Shown here: piece after piece, positions 13,861 to 30,945 of the stretch | Layout: each line of letters starts with the position of its first letter | How positions within the stretch are numbered: the stretch's first letter is position 1 | From: Pelagomonas calceolata | Taxonomy: Eukaryota; Sar; Pelagophyceae; Pelagomonadales; Pelagomonadaceae | Length of the DNA: 64,000 bases | Reading direction: 5' to 3' | Assembly (NCBI GenBank): GCA_918797485.1 | Contig: CAKKNE010000004.1 | Coordinates: 310,001 to 374,000 of the forward strand | Notes under the pieces: generated by a model | The model's database searches: none | What the model saw: only the letters and a program-made list of their open reading frames with translations | What the model was told of the DNA's origin: nothing | Made by a program: the position numbers and the translations under genes

Positions 13861-16122
13861 CTAGCGCGCCGCGACGACGGCATCATCAACGAGCGCCTCC
13901 TCGCGCACCCCTCCTTCCACCAACGCGTCGGCGACGGCTCTAGCTTTCAGCACCACTTCATTCCACTCTTCCTCCGTGTCCGATAGGGCCGTCAGAGCGC
14001 CGCCCGCCGCCACGTCCAAGCGCGGCTTCGAGTTCAAGCCCGATAAAACGGCAGTGCGTATGACGACGTTGAGGTCGGCACTACCATCAAAGCCAAAGAA
14101 CCCCAGACACCCGGCGTAGCAGCCTCGCGCTCGCCCCTCGAGGTCGTCCAAAATCTCGCAGGTCCGCCTCTTCGGCGCGCCCGTCATGCTTCCGGGAGGG
14201 AAGGCCTGTTTGACGACGTCCACGGTACTCGTAGACGCGGTCCCCTCGACCGTCGTGACGAGCTGGTGCACCGTGGCGAAGGACTCCAAGGCACACAACT
14301 CCGTCACATTGACACTACCCAATTCACAAGAACGGCTCAGGTCGTTGCGGAGGAGGTCCGCGATCATGAGGTTTTCCGCATTTGATTTGATACAATTTTG
14401 CAGCGTCAGGGCGCTCCGGAGGTCCTGAGTAGCATCATCGTAGCGCGCCGCCGTGCCCTTGAAGGGCCGCGCCTCCACGCGTTTTGTCGCGGCGTCAATA
14501 GATAGGAAGCGTTCGGGGGACGAACACAGTACGGCCACGTCATCGAGCTTGAGATACGCAGCATGCGGCGCCGGGTTTTGTTTTCGTAGCGCCTCGTACC
14601 ACGTCAGGGGGTCGCCCACGTGATCCAACTCCGCGCCAAAGGTCGTCGTGAGACAGACTTCGTACGAATCGCCGGCGTCGATCGCGGCGCGGGCCCTTGC
14701 CACTCTTTTAGCGTAGGCGCGCTTCGACATGTGCGGTCTTAATGATATCTCGCGCCTCGCGAACTTTTTTGGTGTAGGCTTTGCTGCTCGGACGGCGGCC
14801 TCGGCCGTCCGACGCCAGGCGCCGTCGTAGTCCGTGCCACGTTGTTGTAATTCGAGGATCCACACAGTACTGTCCTGGACCACAACGGCGCGACCGCACC
14901 GGATGAACGCGGCGTCGGGCTCCGGCGCCGATTTCTCGGACGTCTCGCCGGGGTAGTCGGCCGTCTCTCGTCTTACCTCATAGCCCAGGTAGCCGACGAG
15001 GCCCAGGCGGAAGGCGAAGGGTAAGTTTACCTGGGAACCGGTCTCATCTACGACAATATCGTGCGCCATGGTTGATAACTCGCCCTGGACGTGGTCCAGC
15101 ACGTCTCCTCTCAAAACCTCACCGTCACGATGCGTGATACCGCCGCGCAACGACGTTCTATGAGTCAGCACGGCCCCAAACGGCCCGCCCGCATCACCCA
15201 ACACCGACGTGTTCCTCCCATCCAGCCAAAAGCCGTCCTCCGCGAATAAGGAACGGTGCACGGCCGCCGCGTCCACACCGTCCACGTCTAAACGCGTCGC
15301 GCGCGTCACGAAGGACGATGTTGATGTAGGTACGTGCTTTTGGATAGAAGGCACGAGTGGCCGTCTTCGAGACCGCTCCCGCACCACATCGAGAAAGTTC
15401 GCCGCGATTGATGAACCGCGCGGCGTCGCCACCGACTCCGGATGGAACTGCACACCGTACCTCGGTTTGGCGACGTGCTCGACGGCGAGCACGTCGCCCT
15501 CCCTCAGCCCTCGCGCCGTGATGCGGAGGTCGCTGTTTGTTAGAGATGACTCGTCTACTGTCAGGGAGTGGTAGCGCGTGGCTTCAAAGCCTTGCTCCAT
15601 GCCTTTGAATAGTCTGGAACCAGTGTGGGCTACTCTGCTTACCAAACCGTGCTGTGGTTCTTGTAAACGTTTCACGGCACCGCCCTCACTCAGTGCGAGG
15701 AATTGATGGCCCAGGCAGACGCCTAGGACCGGCATGTCGTCCGCGTGTCGCAGGCACTGGTGTAGTGTACGAGGCACGTGGGCCGGGTGGCCCGGCCCCG
15801 GTGATAATACCAACGCGTCGTACTTCCTTAAGAGTGCTGCGGCGTCTTTGTTGAGTTGTTCCTCGAACGCGGCGTCGTCGGCGGCGACGACCTCTGGTGT
15901 GGCGCCCGCATCGTGCAGCCAGCTCGCGACGTTGTGCGTGTAGCTGTCGTGGCAGTCGACGAGGAGGACTTTAGGTCTTTGCGAGTGGTGCAGCGCTGAC
16001 GCTGACCGTGTCAACAAGGTGAAAGCCAGCGCCAGCCGCGCCGGGCGCGAGTGCTGCAGCGCTGACGCCGTCAGTGTCAATGTGAAGCCCAGCGACGCCA
16101 GCCGCCCCGGGCGTCGCCGCAT
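13861..16122 (-). CDS. Aminodeoxychorismate synthase (PabA-PabB fusion), probably plastid-targeted
   Basis: Converts chorismate and glutamine to 4-amino-4-deoxychorismate, the first step to the p-aminobenzoate part of folate. 753 residues. After the leader comes a class I glutamine amidotransferase (VLLVDCHDSYTHN, nucleophile Cys in VLGVCLGHQF, catalytic His-Glu in GVQFHPES), then the chorismate-binding domain with PPGSMTGAPKRRTCEIL and CYAGCLGFFGFDG near the C-terminus. The fusion order matches the eukaryotic enzyme. PPGSMTGAPK favours PabB over anthranilate synthase (TrpE), though the two families are close. The hydrophobic leader contains a 22-residue tandem repeat (see 15981-16112) and suggests ER-then-plastid entry. 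The frame continues 31 codons upstream; the ATG at 16122 gives the cleaner leader. Confidence 0.9.
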   Translation of the reverse strand: MRRRPGRLASLGFTLTLTASALQHSRPARLALAFTLLTRSASALHHSQRPKVLLVDCHDSYTHNVASWLHDAGATPEVVAADDAAFEEQLNKDAAALLRKYDALVLSPGPGHPAHVPRTLHQCLRHADDMPVLGVCLGHQFLALSEGGAVKRLQEPQHGLVSRVAHTGSRLFKGMEQGFEATRYHSLTVDESSLTNSDLRITARGLREGDVLAVEHVAKPRYGVQFHPESVATPRGSSIAANFLDVVRERSRRRPLVPSIQKHVPTSTSSFVTRATRLDVDGVDAAAVHRSLFAEDGFWLDGRNTSVLGDAGGPFGAVLTHRTSLRGGITHRDGEVLRGDVLDHVQGELSTMAHDIVVDETGSQVNLPFAFRLGLVGYLGYEVRRETADYPGETSEKSAPEPDAAFIRCGRAVVVQDSTVWILELQQRGTDYDGAWRRTAEAAVRAAKPTPKKFARREISLRPHMSKRAYAKRVARARAAIDAGDSYEVCLTTTFGAELDHVGDPLTWYEALRKQNPAPHAAYLKLDDVAVLCSSPERFLSIDAATKRVEARPFKGTAARYDDATQDLRSALTLQNCIKSNAENLMIADLLRNDLSRSCELGSVNVTELCALESFATVHQLVTTVEGTASTSTVDVVKQAFPPGSMTGAPKRRTCEILDDLEGRARGCYAGCLGFFGFDGSADLNVVIRTAVLSGLNSKPRLDVAAGGALTALSDTEEEWNEVVLKARAVADALVEGGVREEALVDDAVVAAR
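15981..16112 (-). repeat. 66-bp tandem duplication in the leader of the folate gene
   Basis: Two units, 15981-16046 and 16047-16112, begin GCGAGTGSTGCAGCGCTGAC and stay similar throughout. The period of 66 keeps the frame and gives the protein two copies of a hydrophobic segment ending SALQHS and SALHHS. It affects only the targeting region. Confidence 0.75.
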
Positions 16123-16222
16123 CACGTTGCAGGGCCTGCACGTAGCCAATGCGATCTGCAGGGCTATGCCAAGGTGAGCTAGAATGCTATGTGACGAACG
16201 AGTCGTCAGGCACAAAATTGAC

Positions 16223-24318: not shown

Positions 24319-27300
24319 TTACTTCTGATGCTCCTCGAGGAGCGCGACGATGGACGAGTGGCCTTTCTTCCGCGCGATGCCCAGTGGCGTTGTGCCCTTT
24401 TTGGTCACACAACTGGCATCCGCGCCTTTGTCCAGTAACAGCCGCGCCGCGTCGATGTGGCCGTTTTGGCAGGCGATGATCAGCGGCGTCCAGCCGTTCT
24501 CCGTCGCCCGGTCGACCTCCGCGCCTTTATCTAACAACAGCCGCGCCGCGTCGACGTGGCCCTTCTGGCAGGCGATATACAGCGGCGTCTCGCCGTCCTT
24601 ATTCGCCCGATCGACCTCCGCGCCGTTGTCCAGCAGCAGCCGCGCCGCGTCGACGCGGCCCCACTGACAGGCAATGTACAGCGGCGTCCGACCGTCCTCC
24701 GCCGGACGATCGACCTCCGCGCCCTTGTCCAGCAACAGCCGCACCGCGTCAACGTGGCCGTTCTGGCAAGCGACGAGCAGCGGCGTCGTACCATTCTCTG
24801 TCGCCCGATCGACCTCCGCGCCGTTGTCCAGCAGCATCCGCACCGCGTCGACGTGGCCCTGATGGCAGGCGATCAACAGCGGCGTGACACCCCCCTCATT
24901 TGCCCGATCGACCTCCGCGCCCTTGTCCAGCAACAGCCGCACCGCGTCAACGTGGCCGTTCAAGCAGGCGATGTACAGAGGCGTCGCGCCGTCCTTGTTC
25001 GCCCGGTCGACCTCCGCGCCTTTGTCCAGCAACATTTTCGCCAATTCGACGTGGCCGTTCGAGCAGGCGACGTATAGCGAAGTTGCGCCGTCATCCTTCG
25101 TCTGGTCGATCGCTGCGCCGTCGTCGAGGAGCCTCATCATTTCATCGACGTCGCCTGCCTTGGCGGTGGCGTGCAGAGGGTAAAGCTGCTCCTCGAGGAG
25201 CGCGACGATGGACGAGTGGCCTTTGCTTTTTGCGATGGACAGTGGCGTGTTCCCATTCTTCGTTGCCCGATTGACCTCCGCGCCTTTCTCCAGCAGCAGC
25301 CGCGCCGCGTCGATGTGGCCCTCCTGGCAGGCGACGAACAGCAGCGTTGTGCCGTCCCCCTCGTCCGCCCAGTCGACCTCCGCGCCGTTGTCCAGCAGCA
25401 GCCGCGCCGCGTCGATGTGGCCATAGTCGCAGGCGATGCATAGCGGCGTCCTGCCGTAATGGTCTGTCCGGTCGACCTCCGCGCCTTTATCCAGGAACAT
25501 CCGTGCCGCGTCGACGCGATCGTGCTCACACGCAATATGCAGAATCGTACGATCAATTTCGTTTGCACAATTCGGATCAGCGCCATGTTCCAGCAACAGC
25601 CGCGCCGCGTCGAAGCGCTCGTTTTCACACGCATCATACAGAATCGAACCACCCTCCCAATCTGGATCACCCTCTTCGTTCGTCCAATTTTGATCGGCGC
25701 CGTGCTCGAGACATAACTGCATCGCGTCGAGATTCCGGTTCCGATAAGCGAACAAAAACGGCGTCGTACAATCCAAGCACAAATCGACAGCTGCACCTCG
25801 CTCCACCAATAGCGTCGCGACGTCGAGGTGTCCGCGAGCACACGCAATCCCAAACGGCGACCAATCACCCTCACGCCTCTTATCGACCGCGGCACCCGCA
25901 TCGAGCAGCAAGCGCGCGGCGTCGACGTGCCCTTTCAAACTCGCTACAAACAGCGGCGTATAGTCGTCATCATCTTCCTGATCGACGTTATCACCCTGCT
26001 GAAGAAGAGCGCGCATCGCCTCAATGCCGCCTTGATAGCATGCGAGCGTGAGTGGCGTCGTGCCGCTCTCGACGCGCAATTCCCCCCACCGCTTCCCAAA
26101 AGAGACAAAGAATCCGCTCATGTCGCTCCTGACAGCCAAGGTCTTAATCTCATCATCAAAAGGAATCACCCGCAGCGCCGCACCGCCCTTGCTCGCGTCC
26201 CACACCTGCAAAGTCTTGTCCTTCGACCCGCTCACGAGCCGCATCTCGCCCGTCGCCGGATCCGCGAAGGCCGTCAGCGCGTTCACGTCATAATTCGTGT
26301 GTCCCTTGAGCACGAACAGCGGCGAGGCAACCCTGGTCTCGTCTTCGTCCGAGGCCTCCTCGTCCTCGTCCTCCTCAGCGGCATCGGACTCCTCGGCCGC
26401 GCCGCCCGCGGCTAAGTCCCAGATCCGCACGAAACCGTCCCTATCTCCGCTCGCGAGGCAAAGTCCGCCCGTCGCCGAGTCTTTGAAAACAGTCAAAGCC
26501 AGCACCCAGTCCGTATATGCGCAGTCAAGTACGGCCAATGCCCAGCCGCCCGCAACCGGGTCGTATATGCGCACCTCTCTGCTACAACCACAAGCAATTC
26601 GCAGCGCACCCGTCGCCGGGTCCGCGAAGGTCGCCAGCGCCGTCACGGAGCCAACGTCGATCACGACCAGCGCTTCCCCACCAGCGACCGGGTCAAAGAC
26701 GCCCACCTTCTCGTCATAACAATCACAAACGAGCCGCGGCGCGCCCGTCGCAGGATCCGTGAAGACTTCCAGCGCGCCAGCGCGCACGTCGATCACGACC
26801 AGCGCCTCGCCTCCCGCGACCGCGTCGAAGACAAGCACCTTTCCCGACGCGCATGCAAGCCGCGGCGCGCCAGTCGCCGGGTCCGTGAAGAACGCCAGCG
26901 CAGAAGCCCCCTCTTTAATCACGAGCAACACATCGCCAGTCTCCGTGTCCCACACGCGAATATCATTCGACCCGGTCGCGACCCGCAGCGCGCCCGTCGC
27001 CGGATCCACAAAGGTCACCAGGGCGCTCACGTCGTCAGAGTGCCCCTCGGGCTCCGCCTCGATCGCCGCGCCGCTCGCCGCCGGGTTCCAGACTTGGAGG
27101 GCAGAATACGAGTACCTGCTCACGATCCGCGGCTCGCCCGTCGCCGGGTCCGTGAAGGCTGCCAAGGAATTCACCCAGTGATATTGCCCCTCAAGCACGA
27201 CCAGCGCCTCGCCGCCCGCGACGGGGTCGAAGACGCGCACCTTTTTGTCGTCTGCACAGCTCGCGAGCCGCGGAGCGCCCGTCGCCAGGTCCTTGAATGC

Positions 27301-30300
27301 GACCAGCGCATTCACCACTTCGTCGCCTGCGTCGCACTCGAGCAGCGCATCGCCGCCAGAAACCGCGTCAAAGATAGACACCCCCCTCCAAGAACCACAC
27401 GCGAGCCTCGGCGCGCCCGTCGCTGGTTCCTTGAAAATCACCAGCGCACTCACTCTACCGCCCACGAACAGCGCAGAACTAATATCTAGCACGAACAGCG
27501 CGTCGCCGCCCACGACCGGGTCGAAGACAAACACCTTATTTCCCGACGCGCACGCAAGCCGCAGCGCTTCGTTGTCCTCGGCATGCGAGTTCTCGTCGTC
27601 GTCGTCCTCGTCGTCGCCGTTGTCTTCGTACTCCTCCTCTTCCTCTTCGCACTCCTCCTCTTCCTCTTCGCATTCCTCCTCTTCCTCTTCGCACTCCTCC
27701 TCTTCCTCTTCCTCTTCCGCGGTCGGGGCCGCGAAGACCACCAGCACGTTAGCGTCCACGTCGATCACGACCAGCGCCTCGCCACCAGCGACCGGGTCGA
27801 AGACAAGCACCTTCCCAGCAACTTCATCACCGTCCTCATCAAGCCCCCCCGTGCCGCACGCGAGCCGCGGCGCGCCCGTCGCCGGATCCTCAAATACGAC
27901 CAGCGCTTTCACCTCACCACCCACATCGATCACGAGCAGTGCCTCGCCGCCGGCGACCGGGTCGAAGACGCGCACTTTTCCGTCCTCACATCCACAAGCC
28001 AGACGCAACTCGCCCGTCGCCGGGTCTTTGAAGACCGCCAGCGCGTAGACCTCGTCGCCGGCATCAATCACGACCAACGCCGCGCCACCCGCAACCGGAT
28101 CATAGATGCACACCTCGCTTCTAGACTCACAAGCAACCCGCGGCTCGCCCGTCGCCGGATCCACGAACATCGCCAAGCTCCTAACATCAGATCCGACCTC
28201 GATCCGACACCGCTCCGCCCCACCCGCCGCGGTCAGGCCCATCGGCCACACGGTCGAGAGCGGCAGCTTGCTCGCAGCACGCTTTGCGTCCTCGGCCAGG
28301 CGTTGTGCAGCTGGAGACGACTCCGCATCGGCGCGCGGCATCAGCCGCTGCCACAACTGCTCTATGAGAGGCACTCCCCGTGATAGCAGGTTCCGCGACA
28401 ACACCAAGGAGTCGGTCAGCAGCAGTGTATCCTGGCCCTTCAGAGCACGCAAGTCCGCCACGAAGGAAACGATGTCGCCAGCGCTCCGCTTCCGCACGTA
28501 CGACAGACTGCAGGCGATCGCGACGGCCTCGCTCTCGTTATTCGACCGCTCCATGTGAAACAAACACCACCGCAACGCATAAGCATCCGACGCCACGCCA
28601 CCGTCGCCCTCCACGAACGATGCGAGCACCTCATCTGCGGCCGCGTCGCTCGAATACGACTTTGTATCCAGAACACCAGCACGAATAGCTTGAGCACAAG
28701 CCCGCGCCATTCGCCGGTGCGCCGCGTCCCGCGAGACGAAGAACGCGTCCTCAGAAGAACGCTTATCGAACGGCGCCTCGCCGGTTAGCCAATCCGTTAC
28801 GGTCTTATGTAATACACCGATCACGTCGCCCTCGCGCAGCGGGAACAGCAGCGACACTTCCGCGCAGAGACGCTCGCAGCGATCCCGATCCCAGCCGAGC
28901 GCCCCGCTCGCAGCGTCAATCGTCAACGGCTCTGCAGCAACGCAGATTAATTCAATGAGCGGCAGCGCATCGCCCCACGCGTCATCATCGACAAACACGC
29001 GTCGAAAGTTCTCCGCGTAGATCTCGTCGAGGCCCGCCGGCAGCGCGCCGACGCTCGCAAAGTCGATCTTGCCCGTCGTGGACGCGAGCTGCTCGGCAAT
29101 CAGGCGCGCGTAGAGCATCAGTCCTCCGGCCTTTCGTTCGAGCGAGGTTACAGCCGCGTCGAGCGCCGACGAGTTGAGGCGCTCGGCGATGAACGTCTCA
29201 AGCTCAGTCGCCTTGACGCTCGTGCCCTCGCACATCTTCGGTAGCGCCAGTCTAATGACTTCGTACTGCTCGTGGGCAATGTGCTTCGCGTCCAGGACGC
29301 TCTTTAAATGCAGCTGGACCTCGGCGAGATGTTTTCGGCCGTCGTCGAGGCGCACGCTGACGTTCAAATTCATGTCGCGGTAGCCGAGGGGCGTCGGGCT
29401 CGCGAACTTGTTTTTTAATTGCGCGATCTCCAGCCCGAGGCCGCCGCCGTCCAATTCAGTCAACACCTTAAGTAGGTCAGTAGCGCTCTCGAACACGACC
29501 GTCGCACGGGCTAGATCCCGGAATTTCTCGGGATGTGGCACACCATTGTCGGTGTATTTGTCCGCGAGCTTGCGCTCCGCAGATTCACGCCCTTTGACGC
29601 CTGGGTCCGCCACGTCGCCCGGCAGCGTCTTCAGCGCGTCGACCAAAATTGTCTGCGCCAGTGATGCGTCGGCATAGAGCTTGTCGAAGTCAGTCTCATC
29701 TTGTATCAAGTCGAGACGTCGCTCTTCATACTTCTCGAGCTCGCGGATCCCAGGAACGCCGCGGACCGCCTCGTCGTACGCGCCCTTTGACCGGCGCAGC
29801 GGATCCTCAAGATCCGCGAACGTGTCGAGATTCTTCAAGCCCGGGAACTTCGCCTCAACCTCGTGCCGCAGCGAGTCCATGGTTACCTCGAGCTCGACGT
29901 GCTCCTTCGCGAGCACCGTCAGGTACGCGCGAACGTCCTGCCGGTTCCGCGCCTCGTCGACGCGCAGCTCCGACGGCGTAAAGCACGAGAGCCTCGCTTT
30001 AATTTGAGCTTCGTCGCGGCTTGTCACGACAAGTTTGATCCACGGCGGCAGCGTCTTGAGCTCGTTCGCGAGCAGAGAGAGCACGGGCTGCAAAGCGTCG
30101 CGCGGTAGCTCATCGAGCGCGTCGACAATTAATACGAGAGCGTCGTCCGCGCCGCGCGGCGCCTCGACGTTTTGCAGCGGTTTTGCTACTAAAGCCTCGA
30201 AGAGCTCGTCGACCTTGTCCGTCGCGTTGTCGCTGCCGCCGCCCTCGCGCAGGGCGTCTTCGAAACCCTCGACCGTTGCGCAAAGCATGCCGGCTAGCGA

Positions 30301-30945
30301 CCGCAGCAGCGCCATTGGCGCGGACCGCGCCGGCTCGGTGTGCTTGCAGAAGTGCCACGCCGCGACGTTTTCTTTGTCGAGCAGTCGCGCCAACAACTCG
30401 GCCGCCGCGACACTCTTGCCCGTGCCACCACCGCCGACGAGCCAGAAGAGCTTCGCCGCTTCCGGGTCCGTGCGCCAGCGCATGACCGCCTCGAAGACCC
30501 ATTCGCGCGTCCCAGTTAGGTGCTGCCCGCGTTTCTCGGCAATTATGGCCGAAAGATCCAGCGCCTCCGCCACGCCGGAGCGGTCGACGCCGTGGAGCTT
30601 TTTGTAGAGCTGCTCCGAAATGCCTGCCCTTTGAGCACGCTCGACGGCCGCCGCCCGCGCCTTCGCGTGCGCGATCCAGCCCACCTTCGCGACGCCCTTC
30701 TTCCAGCGCGCTATCGCGGTGGCGGACTTCTTCTTCCTCTCGTCCGGCGGCCCCGCGCCCTTGCTCGCCGGGCCGTCCGCATTTGCCTTGGCCTCCGTCC
30801 AGCACCGCACCGCATCGTCCCTGGAGATCTTGGCCTCGGCGTCCGCGAATTTCTCCTCCCACGCGGGCTGCCACTCGGTGCCCGCCAGCTCTTTTGCCTC
30901 GGCAAGTGAGACCTCCGCCGGGAGAGATGATACACCGCCGCCCAT
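24319..30945 (-). CDS. STAND NTPase: NACHT, RelA/SpoT-like insert, propeller-like and ankyrin repeats
   Basis: 2208 residues without a visible intron. It starts MGGGVSSL, with Gly at position 2, a possible N-myristoylation site. A NACHT/AAA-type ATPase follows: Walker A GGGGTGKS (171-178), Walker B LVLIVDALDEL (270-280), sensor-like KLVVTSRDEAQ (304-313). Residues about 420-565 resemble RelA/SpoT nucleotidyltransferases (GRESAERKL, RDLARATVVFE, SPTPLGYRDMNLNV, EVQLHLK, HEQYEVIR), inserted before the winged-helix-like part. About 930-1620 holds repeats of about 42 residues with DPATGEPRLACG and VRVFDPVAGGEALVVID, probably a WD40-like propeller, interrupted by a Glu-rich expansion. About 1625-2205 is two ankyrin arrays, each ending HSSIVALLEE. 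A sensor or scaffold of innate-immunity or regulated-assembly type is inferred from architecture. Confidence 0.9.
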   Translation of the reverse strand: MGGGVSSLPAEVSLAEAKELAGTEWQPAWEEKFADAEAKISRDDAVRCWTEAKANADGPASKGAGPPDERKKKSATAIARWKKGVAKVGWIAHAKARAAAVERAQRAGISEQLYKKLHGVDRSGVAEALDLSAIIAEKRGQHLTGTREWVFEAVMRWRTDPEAAKLFWLVGGGGTGKSVAAAELLARLLDKENVAAWHFCKHTEPARSAPMALLRSLAGMLCATVEGFEDALREGGGSDNATDKVDELFEALVAKPLQNVEAPRGADDALVLIVDALDELPRDALQPVLSLLANELKTLPPWIKLVVTSRDEAQIKARLSCFTPSELRVDEARNRQDVRAYLTVLAKEHVELEVTMDSLRHEVEAKFPGLKNLDTFADLEDPLRRSKGAYDEAVRGVPGIRELEKYEERRLDLIQDETDFDKLYADASLAQTILVDALKTLPGDVADPGVKGRESAERKLADKYTDNGVPHPEKFRDLARATVVFESATDLLKVLTELDGGGLGLEIAQLKNKFASPTPLGYRDMNLNVSVRLDDGRKHLAEVQLHLKSVLDAKHIAHEQYEVIRLALPKMCEGTSVKATELETFIAERLNSSALDAAVTSLERKAGGLMLYARLIAEQLASTTGKIDFASVGALPAGLDEIYAENFRRVFVDDDAWGDALPLIELICVAAEPLTIDAASGALGWDRDRCERLCAEVSLLFPLREGDVIGVLHKTVTDWLTGEAPFDKRSSEDAFFVSRDAAHRRMARACAQAIRAGVLDTKSYSSDAAADEVLASFVEGDGGVASDAYALRWCLFHMERSNNESEAVAIACSLSYVRKRSAGDIVSFVADLRALKGQDTLLLTDSLVLSRNLLSRGVPLIEQLWQRLMPRADAESSPAAQRLAEDAKRAASKLPLSTVWPMGLTAAGGAERCRIEVGSDVRSLAMFVDPATGEPRVACESRSEVCIYDPVAGGAALVVIDAGDEVYALAVFKDPATGELRLACGCEDGKVRVFDPVAGGEALLVIDVGGEVKALVVFEDPATGAPRLACGTGGLDEDGDEVAGKVLVFDPVAGGEALVVIDVDANVLVVFAAPTAEEEEEEEECEEEEEECEEEEEECEEEEEEYEDNGDDEDDDDENSHAEDNEALRLACASGNKVFVFDPVVGGDALFVLDISSALFVGGRVSALVIFKEPATGAPRLACGSWRGVSIFDAVSGGDALLECDAGDEVVNALVAFKDLATGAPRLASCADDKKVRVFDPVAGGEALVVLEGQYHWVNSLAAFTDPATGEPRIVSRYSYSALQVWNPAASGAAIEAEPEGHSDDVSALVTFVDPATGALRVATGSNDIRVWDTETGDVLLVIKEGASALAFFTDPATGAPRLACASGKVLVFDAVAGGEALVVIDVRAGALEVFTDPATGAPRLVCDCYDEKVGVFDPVAGGEALVVIDVGSVTALATFADPATGALRIACGCSREVRIYDPVAGGWALAVLDCAYTDWVLALTVFKDSATGGLCLASGDRDGFVRIWDLAAGGAAEESDAAEEDEDEEASDEDETRVASPLFVLKGHTNYDVNALTAFADPATGEMRLVSGSKDKTLQVWDASKGGAALRVIPFDDEIKTLAVRSDMSGFFVSFGKRWGELRVESGTTPLTLACYQGGIEAMRALLQQGDNVDQEDDDDYTPLFVASLKGHVDAARLLLDAGAAVDKRREGDWSPFGIACARGHLDVATLLVERGAAVDLCLDCTTPFLFAYRNRNLDAMQLCLEHGADQNWTNEEGDPDWEGGSILYDACENERFDAARLLLEHGADPNCANEIDRTILHIACEHDRVDAARMFLDKGAEVDRTDHYGRTPLCIACDYGHIDAARLLLDNGAEVDWADEGDGTTLLFVACQEGHIDAARLLLEKGAEVNRATKNGNTPLSIAKSKGHSSIVALLEEQLYPLHATAKAGDVDEMMRLLDDGAAIDQTKDDGATSLYVACSNGHVELAKMLLDKGAEVDRANKDGATPLYIACLNGHVDAVRLLLDKGAEVDRANEGGVTPLLIACHQGHVDAVRMLLDNGAEVDRATENGTTPLLVACQNGHVDAVRLLLDKGAEVDRPAEDGRTPLYIACQWGRVDAARLLLDNGAEVDRANKDGETPLYIACQKGHVDAARLLLDKGAEVDRATENGWTPLIIACQNGHIDAARLLLDKGADASCVTKKGTTPLGIARKKGHSSIVALLEEHQK
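24322..26070 (-). repeat. Two tandem ankyrin arrays, near-identical units of about 99 bp
   Basis: About 17 units with the core GAEVDRANKDGATPLYIAC. The units between 24340 and 25120 are more alike at nucleotide level than those between 25260 and 26070. A cap ending KGHSSIVALLEE appears twice (near 25190 and at the C-terminus), so the second array looks like a copied and re-expanded version of the first. Confidence 0.85.
27626..27719. repeat. 21-bp minisatellite encoding Glu-rich stretch
   Basis: CACTCCTCCTCTTCCTCTTCG recurs about four times, encoding CEEEEEE units on the minus strand inside the propeller-like region of the STAND protein. It is in frame and purine/pyrimidine-asymmetric, as in replication-slippage expansions. 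Confidence 0.9.

Follow-up and report, generated by a model that had tools for sequence, protein, structure and literature searches.

A RelA/SpoT-type synthetase domain inserted in the NACHT module of a candidate STAND receptor of the picoalga Pelagomonas calceolata

Proteins joining a RelA_SpoT domain with a NACHT-type ATPase have been described in fungi: RelA_SpoT is listed as one N-terminal effector class of the fungal NOD-like receptors (NLRs), including RELA_SPOT-NACHT-WD40 proteins (Dyrka et al., 2014, PMC4986451), and a 2025 survey of the Sordariales retains this class and assigns 14 (82%) of the RelA_SpoT NLRs to the T-NACHT type (PMC12258605). RelA/SpoT toxin domains have also been reported in bacterial and phage-derived systems by a polymorphic-toxin survey (PMC3482391). 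We analyzed here a gene of the pelagophyte Pelagomonas calceolata, located on the reverse strand at 24319..30945 of a stretch of 64,000 nucleotides (GenBank assembly GCA_918797485.1, contig CAKKNE010000004.1, positions 310,001 to 374,000; hereafter the window), which encodes a 2208-residue protein with a RelA/SpoT-type domain inserted in its NACHT module. An original prediction, made from the sequence of the window, had placed the single frame and its strand correctly and had regarded such a joining as the best candidate for an undescribed system, a view that has to be given up, for the RelA_SpoT-armed NLR is, according to the fungal papers above, a kind already known since 2014. To our knowledge, little is known about how the dominant picoalgae of the ocean sense viruses and bacteria.

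Identity and position of the inserted domain

Profile and structure searches assign the insert, far beyond chance, to the synthetases of the RelA/SpoT type. When a profile of 18 copies from the genome was compared with the PDB, Tas1 (E 1.6e-7) and YwaC (E 7.6e-7) were found, and the weaker search with the single sequence gave the same two proteins (Tas1 E 0.011, YwaC 0.1) as the sole matches at E<=10 among 177,635 sequences. All of the 36 Foldseek matches at E<=0.001, obtained with a model of the insert (predicted local distance difference test, pLDDT, 86), were RelA/SpoT enzymes. The structure prediction that had been proposed as a refuting test contains the pol-beta-type RelA/SpoT synthetase fold, and Foldseek, VIA-align and the profile searches together support this fold. 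Its context of a signal transduction ATPase with numerous domains (STAND) is supported as well. SAS1 and SAS2 were the closest folds by Z, and Tas1 was the best profile match with the highest identity. Among viral structures in BFVD, 11 matched at E<=0.001, three of them named RelA/SpoT and one Tas1; PHROGs gave no match for the window domain.

Pfam is far less sensitive to this domain. Residues 336-586 alone matched no family at E<=10, and PF04607 (RelA_SpoT) above its cut-off was not among the matches listed (25 of 35 families) for the window protein. In relatives, PF04607 reached 16.5 bits at locus L034 and 25.4 bits (cut-off 27) in the frame of L045. The genome-wide scan for this family found 12 places at E<=0.1, seven of them over the cut-off; seven of the 12 are distant relatives of the insert, two of these over the cut-off (34.7 and 31.2 bits), the L045 frame being a rescan of one of the two, and none of the 12 coincides with any of the 14 near copies described below. 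In UniRef, two Pelagomonas relatives of the tetratricopeptide repeat (TPR) type (P0025 and P0028) are labeled "RelA/SpoT domain-containing protein".

The features of the gene are as follows, with the basis of each assignment in parentheses.

24319..30945, minus strand: the gene of interest, one open frame of 2208 amino acids (frame reading and sequence)
30925..30945, minus strand: N-terminus MGGGVSS, residues 1-7, myristoylation-like with G2 and S6 (sequence)
30016..30513, minus strand: NPHP3_N/NACHT nucleotide-binding domain, residues 145-310 (Walker A GGGGTGKS 171-178, DALDE 275-279, TSR 308-310)
29167..29895, minus strand: whole insert, about residues 351-593, interrupting the first of the helical domains in the NACHT module (model secondary structure; same place in relatives)
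29236..29613, minus strand: RelA/SpoT-type nucleotidyltransferase core, residues 445-570 (profile match 445-570; PDB profile search; Foldseek and VIA-align)
28666..29166, minus strand: residues 594-760, in which the helical domain continues and a winged helix probably follows (elements of the model starting at 594; AAA_lid_TANC1, matched weakly at E 0.23)
26101..28197, minus strand: a run of 13 WD40-like blades at about residues 917-1615, which includes an acidic stretch of low complexity (hidden Markov model repeat scan; PF00400 6.2e-17)
24322..26073, minus strand: array of ankyrin repeats, of which 16 were detected, at about residues 1625-2208 (PF12796 2.9e-130; repeat count)

The frame is uninterrupted, and the open frame measured 2243 amino acids in the genome scan. 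With Pfam, NPHP3_N was assigned to residues 145-310 and NACHT to 167-319; the protein has the STAND/NLR features of a NACHT-type ATPase with Walker A and B and of C-terminal repeats that form superstructures, the propeller-like and ankyrin repeats having been recognized already in the original prediction. In the model, the insert sits between the helices 331-349 and 594-622, and it therefore lies inside the helical part and not before it. The earlier placement after the ATPase stands, while its limits (about 420-565) and its position ahead of the helical part have been revised to a core of 445-570 in a whole insert of about 351-593. After residue 640, helices and two strands follow in a low-confidence part of the model, where most of the 60 final residues have a pLDDT below 50. 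Algal proteins of the same order, for which a search had been suggested, were found in Prymnesium and Triparma, which have the same insertion. In 34 of the 35 proteins examined, the window protein among them, the motif of the synthetase comes after TSR; the exception, P0008, lacks the NACHT start. As a separate observation on the blade region, window positions 27589-27717 (residues about 1077-1119) encode an acidic low-complexity run, E-rich with C at about every seventh residue and then D-rich.

The motif series of the domain was confirmed at DLAR 477-480, GYRD 521-524, EVQ 542-544 and H558/Y561/E562/R565. In an alignment of 18 genome copies (A1; seven distant copies and 11 of the 14 near copies, L023, L027 and L032 being left out), the invariant residues include K451, R453, K459, D477, R480, K511, G521, Y522, E542, Q544, H558 and Y561; all of these but R453 are invariant also in a set of 23 rows with haptophyte and bolidophyte proteins, and K451, K459, D477, R480, Y522, E542 and Q544 in 16 of 16 NACHT rows; the main catalytic residues are thus constant in all three sets. 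In FaRel2, R64, K66, S70, K74 and R77 form the donor site, D90 binds Mg, R95, E145 and Q147 contact the base and Y128 the acceptor base (PMC11782079). When mapped by motif spacing without superposition, K451, K459, D477, Y522, E542 and Q544 correspond to K66, K74, D90, Y128, E145 and Q147; by this spacing to the FaRel2 residues, the Mg-binding D, the E of E-x-Q, the acceptor Y of GY and the donor lysines expected of a synthetase appear to be present, and R480 has no counterpart among the listed residues.

The active site is, judging from the aligned motifs, partly of the Tas1 type. The canonical (p)ppGpp synthetase motifs D-x-x-G-x-R and NGYRSxH, as in YwaC, are not present in the insert, which has DLARAT and PLGYRDMN instead; in the printed alignment, DIAGVR and NGYRSLH of YwaC stand against D-L-A-R-x-T and PLGY..xN of Tas1. 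D-x-x-R replaces D-x-x-G-x-R in all rows, and the Tas1-like D-x-x-R-x-[T/S] and P-[L/M]-G-Y-x-x-x-N occur in all 16 NACHT rows. A third Tas1-like motif, K-x-R, is found in 18/18 genome copies and in 9/16 NACHT rows. In the TPR-borne domains, most rows retain the asparagine that precedes GY, and the last motif position is occupied by L or M.

Copies in the genome and their evolution

The genome searched comprises 32.4 Mb in 8 contigs. The insert was found at 53 places at E<=1, of which 14 are near copies (63-100% identity) and 39 are distant; the E-values of several distant places exceed 1e-4, and these places may be spurious. The NACHT region was found at 14 places, which are the same 14 loci as the near copies, and PF24883 (NPHP3_N) detects these loci at 86-95 bits together with three weak places that pass the cut-off and one that does not. 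The MG-x3-S start, which the original prediction named as a possible myristoylation site and which resembles a myristoylation motif, is kept in 13 of the 14 NACHT paralogs and in all seven TPR-type loci read. The exception (L028 / L049, G000:C1:3380500-3382400) starts with MPKKGGKKG and has a long, charged, coiled-coil-looking N-terminal stretch.

The reading of the distant places covered 12 of the 39 (L034-L040 and L044-L048). TPR-like repeats follow the domain in all seven of L034-L040, with ankyrins in addition in L035, L036, L037 and L040; the repeats of L034 and L035 were assigned by Pfam and those of the remaining TPR-type loci by eye, the frame of L038 being short. Three large proteins, L045 (G000:C4:1223800-1228600), L046 (G000:C6:1632500-1639500) and L047 (G000:C4:4610500-4619500), carry the RelA/SpoT-like domain near the N-terminus together with hydrophobic, transmembrane-looking segments (by eye) and leucine-rich repeats (LRR; by Pfam in L045 and L046, by eye in L047), and L046 has a C-type lectin domain too; these represent a second receptor-like use of the domain. 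L048 (G000:C3:2008000-2014000) combines in one frame an MGGGAST start, a protein kinase, the RelA/SpoT-like domain with GW for GY, and ankyrins; L044 has KW for GY and no recognized partner domain.

Repeats were counted in 12 of the 14 copies, the broken L027 and L032 being left out, and eight of the 12 served for the ratio of nonsynonymous to synonymous substitution rates (dN/dS) among near copies; the tree comprised 51 chosen sequences. In the 28 pairs of the near copies, dN/dS was 0.09 for the synthetase, 0.12 for NACHT and 0.15 for the following helical part, values that indicate purifying selection on both the synthetase and NACHT. The number of blades is 13-14 in all 12 paralogs (12-13 by a cruder first model), near that of two seven-bladed propellers, and the number of ankyrin repeats ranges from 0 to 32. 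The ankyrin columns richest in nonsynonymous changes are 10, 2, 11 and 31, which we take to lie at or beside binding-surface positions of designed ankyrin proteins, and column 2 has a nonsynonymous excess of 57:4 (p 7.5e-5; parsimony count, 33 columns tested). This variation fits a recognition array modestly.

Elsewhere in the window, one frame at 13861-16215 on the minus strand encodes glutamine amidotransferase and chorismate-binding domains, as in synthases of the anthranilate or aminodeoxychorismate type.

Proposed mechanism and its alternatives

We consider it somewhat probable, on a nearly even balance, that the protein is a STAND (NLR-like) receptor with an effector synthetase built into its switch and with a growth-stopping or killing output, because the fold, the sequence matches, the constant catalytic residues, the Tas1-like motifs, the low dN/dS among near copies, the excess in ankyrin column 2 and the transcript-derived relative P0004 speak for it, because the RelA/SpoT-type domain recurs in other receptor-like proteins with TPR, LRR and kinase partners, because the NACHT loci and the loci of the near inserts are the same 14, and because the blade number is nearly constant as against a variable ankyrin array. 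The protein would be tethered to a membrane by N-myristoylation, and the ankyrin repeats, the blades or both may recognize a viral, bacterial or self ligand. ATP binding would then re-orient the helical domain and free or assemble the synthetase, which may transfer pyrophosphate from ATP to an adenine nucleotide, as Tas1 does, or to the CCA end of tRNA; (p)ppApp is our best guess for the product, and growth arrest or death of the infected cell would serve as defense. The arrangement suggests that an enzyme which halts growth may be activated directly by a STAND switch. Of the immune receptor with a nucleotide-signaling effector that had been predicted, our results support the fold and its STAND setting; the immune role we infer from architecture and evolution.

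Several observations weigh against this STAND receptor with a Tas1-like effector. The Foldseek query TM-scores were 0.30-0.43, the PDB profile search returned also four unrelated proteins at E 0.2 or worse, and YwaC and SAS1 are as near as Tas1 by score or Z. The 631-residue model has a predicted TM-score (pTM) of 0.46, too low to fix the orientation of the domains. Seven rows (haptophyte, Triparma and unnamed) lack K-x-R and have K, M or E there, and P0018 has A; the FaRel2 arginines R64, R95 and R77 have no counterparts, G449, T482 and D462 occupying those spacings. In the Tas1 alignment, R64 and R95 likewise lack counterparts. Two of the 14 copies, L027 and L032, look broken: one is interrupted within the domain by an in-frame TAA, and in the other the match to the domain ends after 151 of 251 residues. 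Among five more divergent proteins, dN/dS was 0.20 for the synthetase, 0.13 for NACHT and 0.16 for the helical part, the synthetase being less constrained there than NACHT. After correction, only one of the 33 ankyrin columns has a significant nonsynonymous excess, and diversifying selection on the blades was rejected, with none of 46 columns passing.

The same receptor may instead pyrophosphorylate the tRNA 3' CCA end, like FaRel2 and CapRel, and shut down translation; the residues mapped onto FaRel2 agree with this and the absent arginines do not, and we regard it as unlikely. A (p)ppGpp synthetase whose product is a second messenger, made under regulation in the cytosol of the alga and perhaps used in sensing nutrients and not in defense, would accord with the closeness of SAS1 and SAS2 by Z, with a YwaC score nearly equal to that of Tas1 and with five strong PF04607 places elsewhere in the genome (79-119 bits), which make an alarmone pathway likely there; it appears quite unlikely, however, as all 16 NACHT rows have L/M for the N before GY and N for the H of NGYRSLH in YwaC, and 14 copies with variable ankyrin arrays would be unusual for nutrient control. 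Still less probable in our judgment is an insert without catalysis that serves as scaffold or nucleotide sensor and modulates the NACHT ATPase: the three donor-site arginines without counterpart favor it, and an insertion in the helical domain could act as an allosteric lever, but D, E, Y and K do not vary in any of the 18, 23 and 16 rows and the near copies have a dN/dS of 0.09. A chance motif series in a GC-rich frame, for which the absence of a Pfam match in the insert itself is the sole support, is practically ruled out by the fold, the profiles and the Pfam genome searches; an artefactual frame is ruled out by its conservation in paralogs under purifying selection and by the transcript-derived relative P0004 (MMETSP), 89% identical over the searched region.

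If the receptor with a built-in synthetase is real, a receptor family with a recognizable enzymatic output poses a direct biochemical question, namely whether (p)ppApp, (p)ppGpp or pyrophosphorylated tRNA is made, and the insertion inside the switch offers a clean case for mechanical control of an enzyme by a STAND module. A wider view, rather doubtful as a whole, is that pelagophytes, bolidophytes and haptophytes share a class of immune receptors that goes back to a single insertion of a Tas1-type pyrophosphokinase, for an alarmone or tRNA, into the NACHT lever, with the STAND change as on-switch, and that in Pelagomonas the domain spread to LRR proteins of the membrane and to kinase-ankyrin and TPR-ankyrin proteins; innate immunity in algae would then generally use alarmone synthesis as an effector output.

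Comparison with known systems

Tas1 (PDB 6ox6), a type VI effector that synthesizes (p)ppApp, resembles the insert in fold, in D-x-x-R-x-T and PLGY..xN and, for the copies of this genome, in K-x-R, which haptophyte and Triparma relatives do not keep; unlike the window protein, Tas1 is secreted to act against bacteria, is paired with an immunity protein and has no receptor module (PMC11782079). CapRel and FaRel2, toxic small alarmone synthetases (toxSAS) that pyrophosphorylate tRNA, share the fold, and CapRel is likewise a sensor fused to a toxic synthetase (PMC11782079); their identity to the insert is lower, the FaRel2 arginines named above are lacking here, and the CapRel sensor is not a STAND module. 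The bacterial STAND defense proteins Avs3 and Avs4, which were among the matches of the ATPase part, and the fungal WD40 NLRs have the STAND switch in common with the window protein. These bacterial and fungal proteins carry other effector domains, at chain ends, and not an inserted synthetase.

The same domain occurs in multidomain proteins resembling those of phages or mobile elements. P0018 (3181 amino acids) shares 17 invariant columns with eight algal cores, and a piece of it is 49% identical to a protein of Bordetella phage vB_BbrM_PHB04 (L041:5089-6570); these have no NACHT, and P0018 has strawberry-notch-type helicase domains. Two genes downstream of it, that phage has a gene annotated as (p)ppGpp synthetase. 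Searches with the P0018 piece gave two records of one phage and two plasmid records, and one scan of bacterial and archaeal species genomes gave 85 pattern matches with no confirmed relative, so that a bacterial source was not located.

No paper on an algal NACHT-RelA protein was among the matches listed from the open-licence literature, and a term search of the main text of the Pelagomonas genome paper (PMC9481584) found none of NACHT, ankyrin, WD40 and immune. The fungal RelA_SpoT NLRs remain the closest described kind, and they too combine, in a single eukaryotic chain, a RelA_SpoT-family domain with NACHT and with repeats of the WD40 or another type; compared by description only, their domain is N-terminal to NACHT, whereas in the pelagophyte, bolidophyte and haptophyte proteins it lies inside the NACHT helical part. 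As far as the literature was searched, this internal position, the partly Tas1-like site, the algal expansion and distribution, and the use of the domain in several receptor-like proteins are without precedent.
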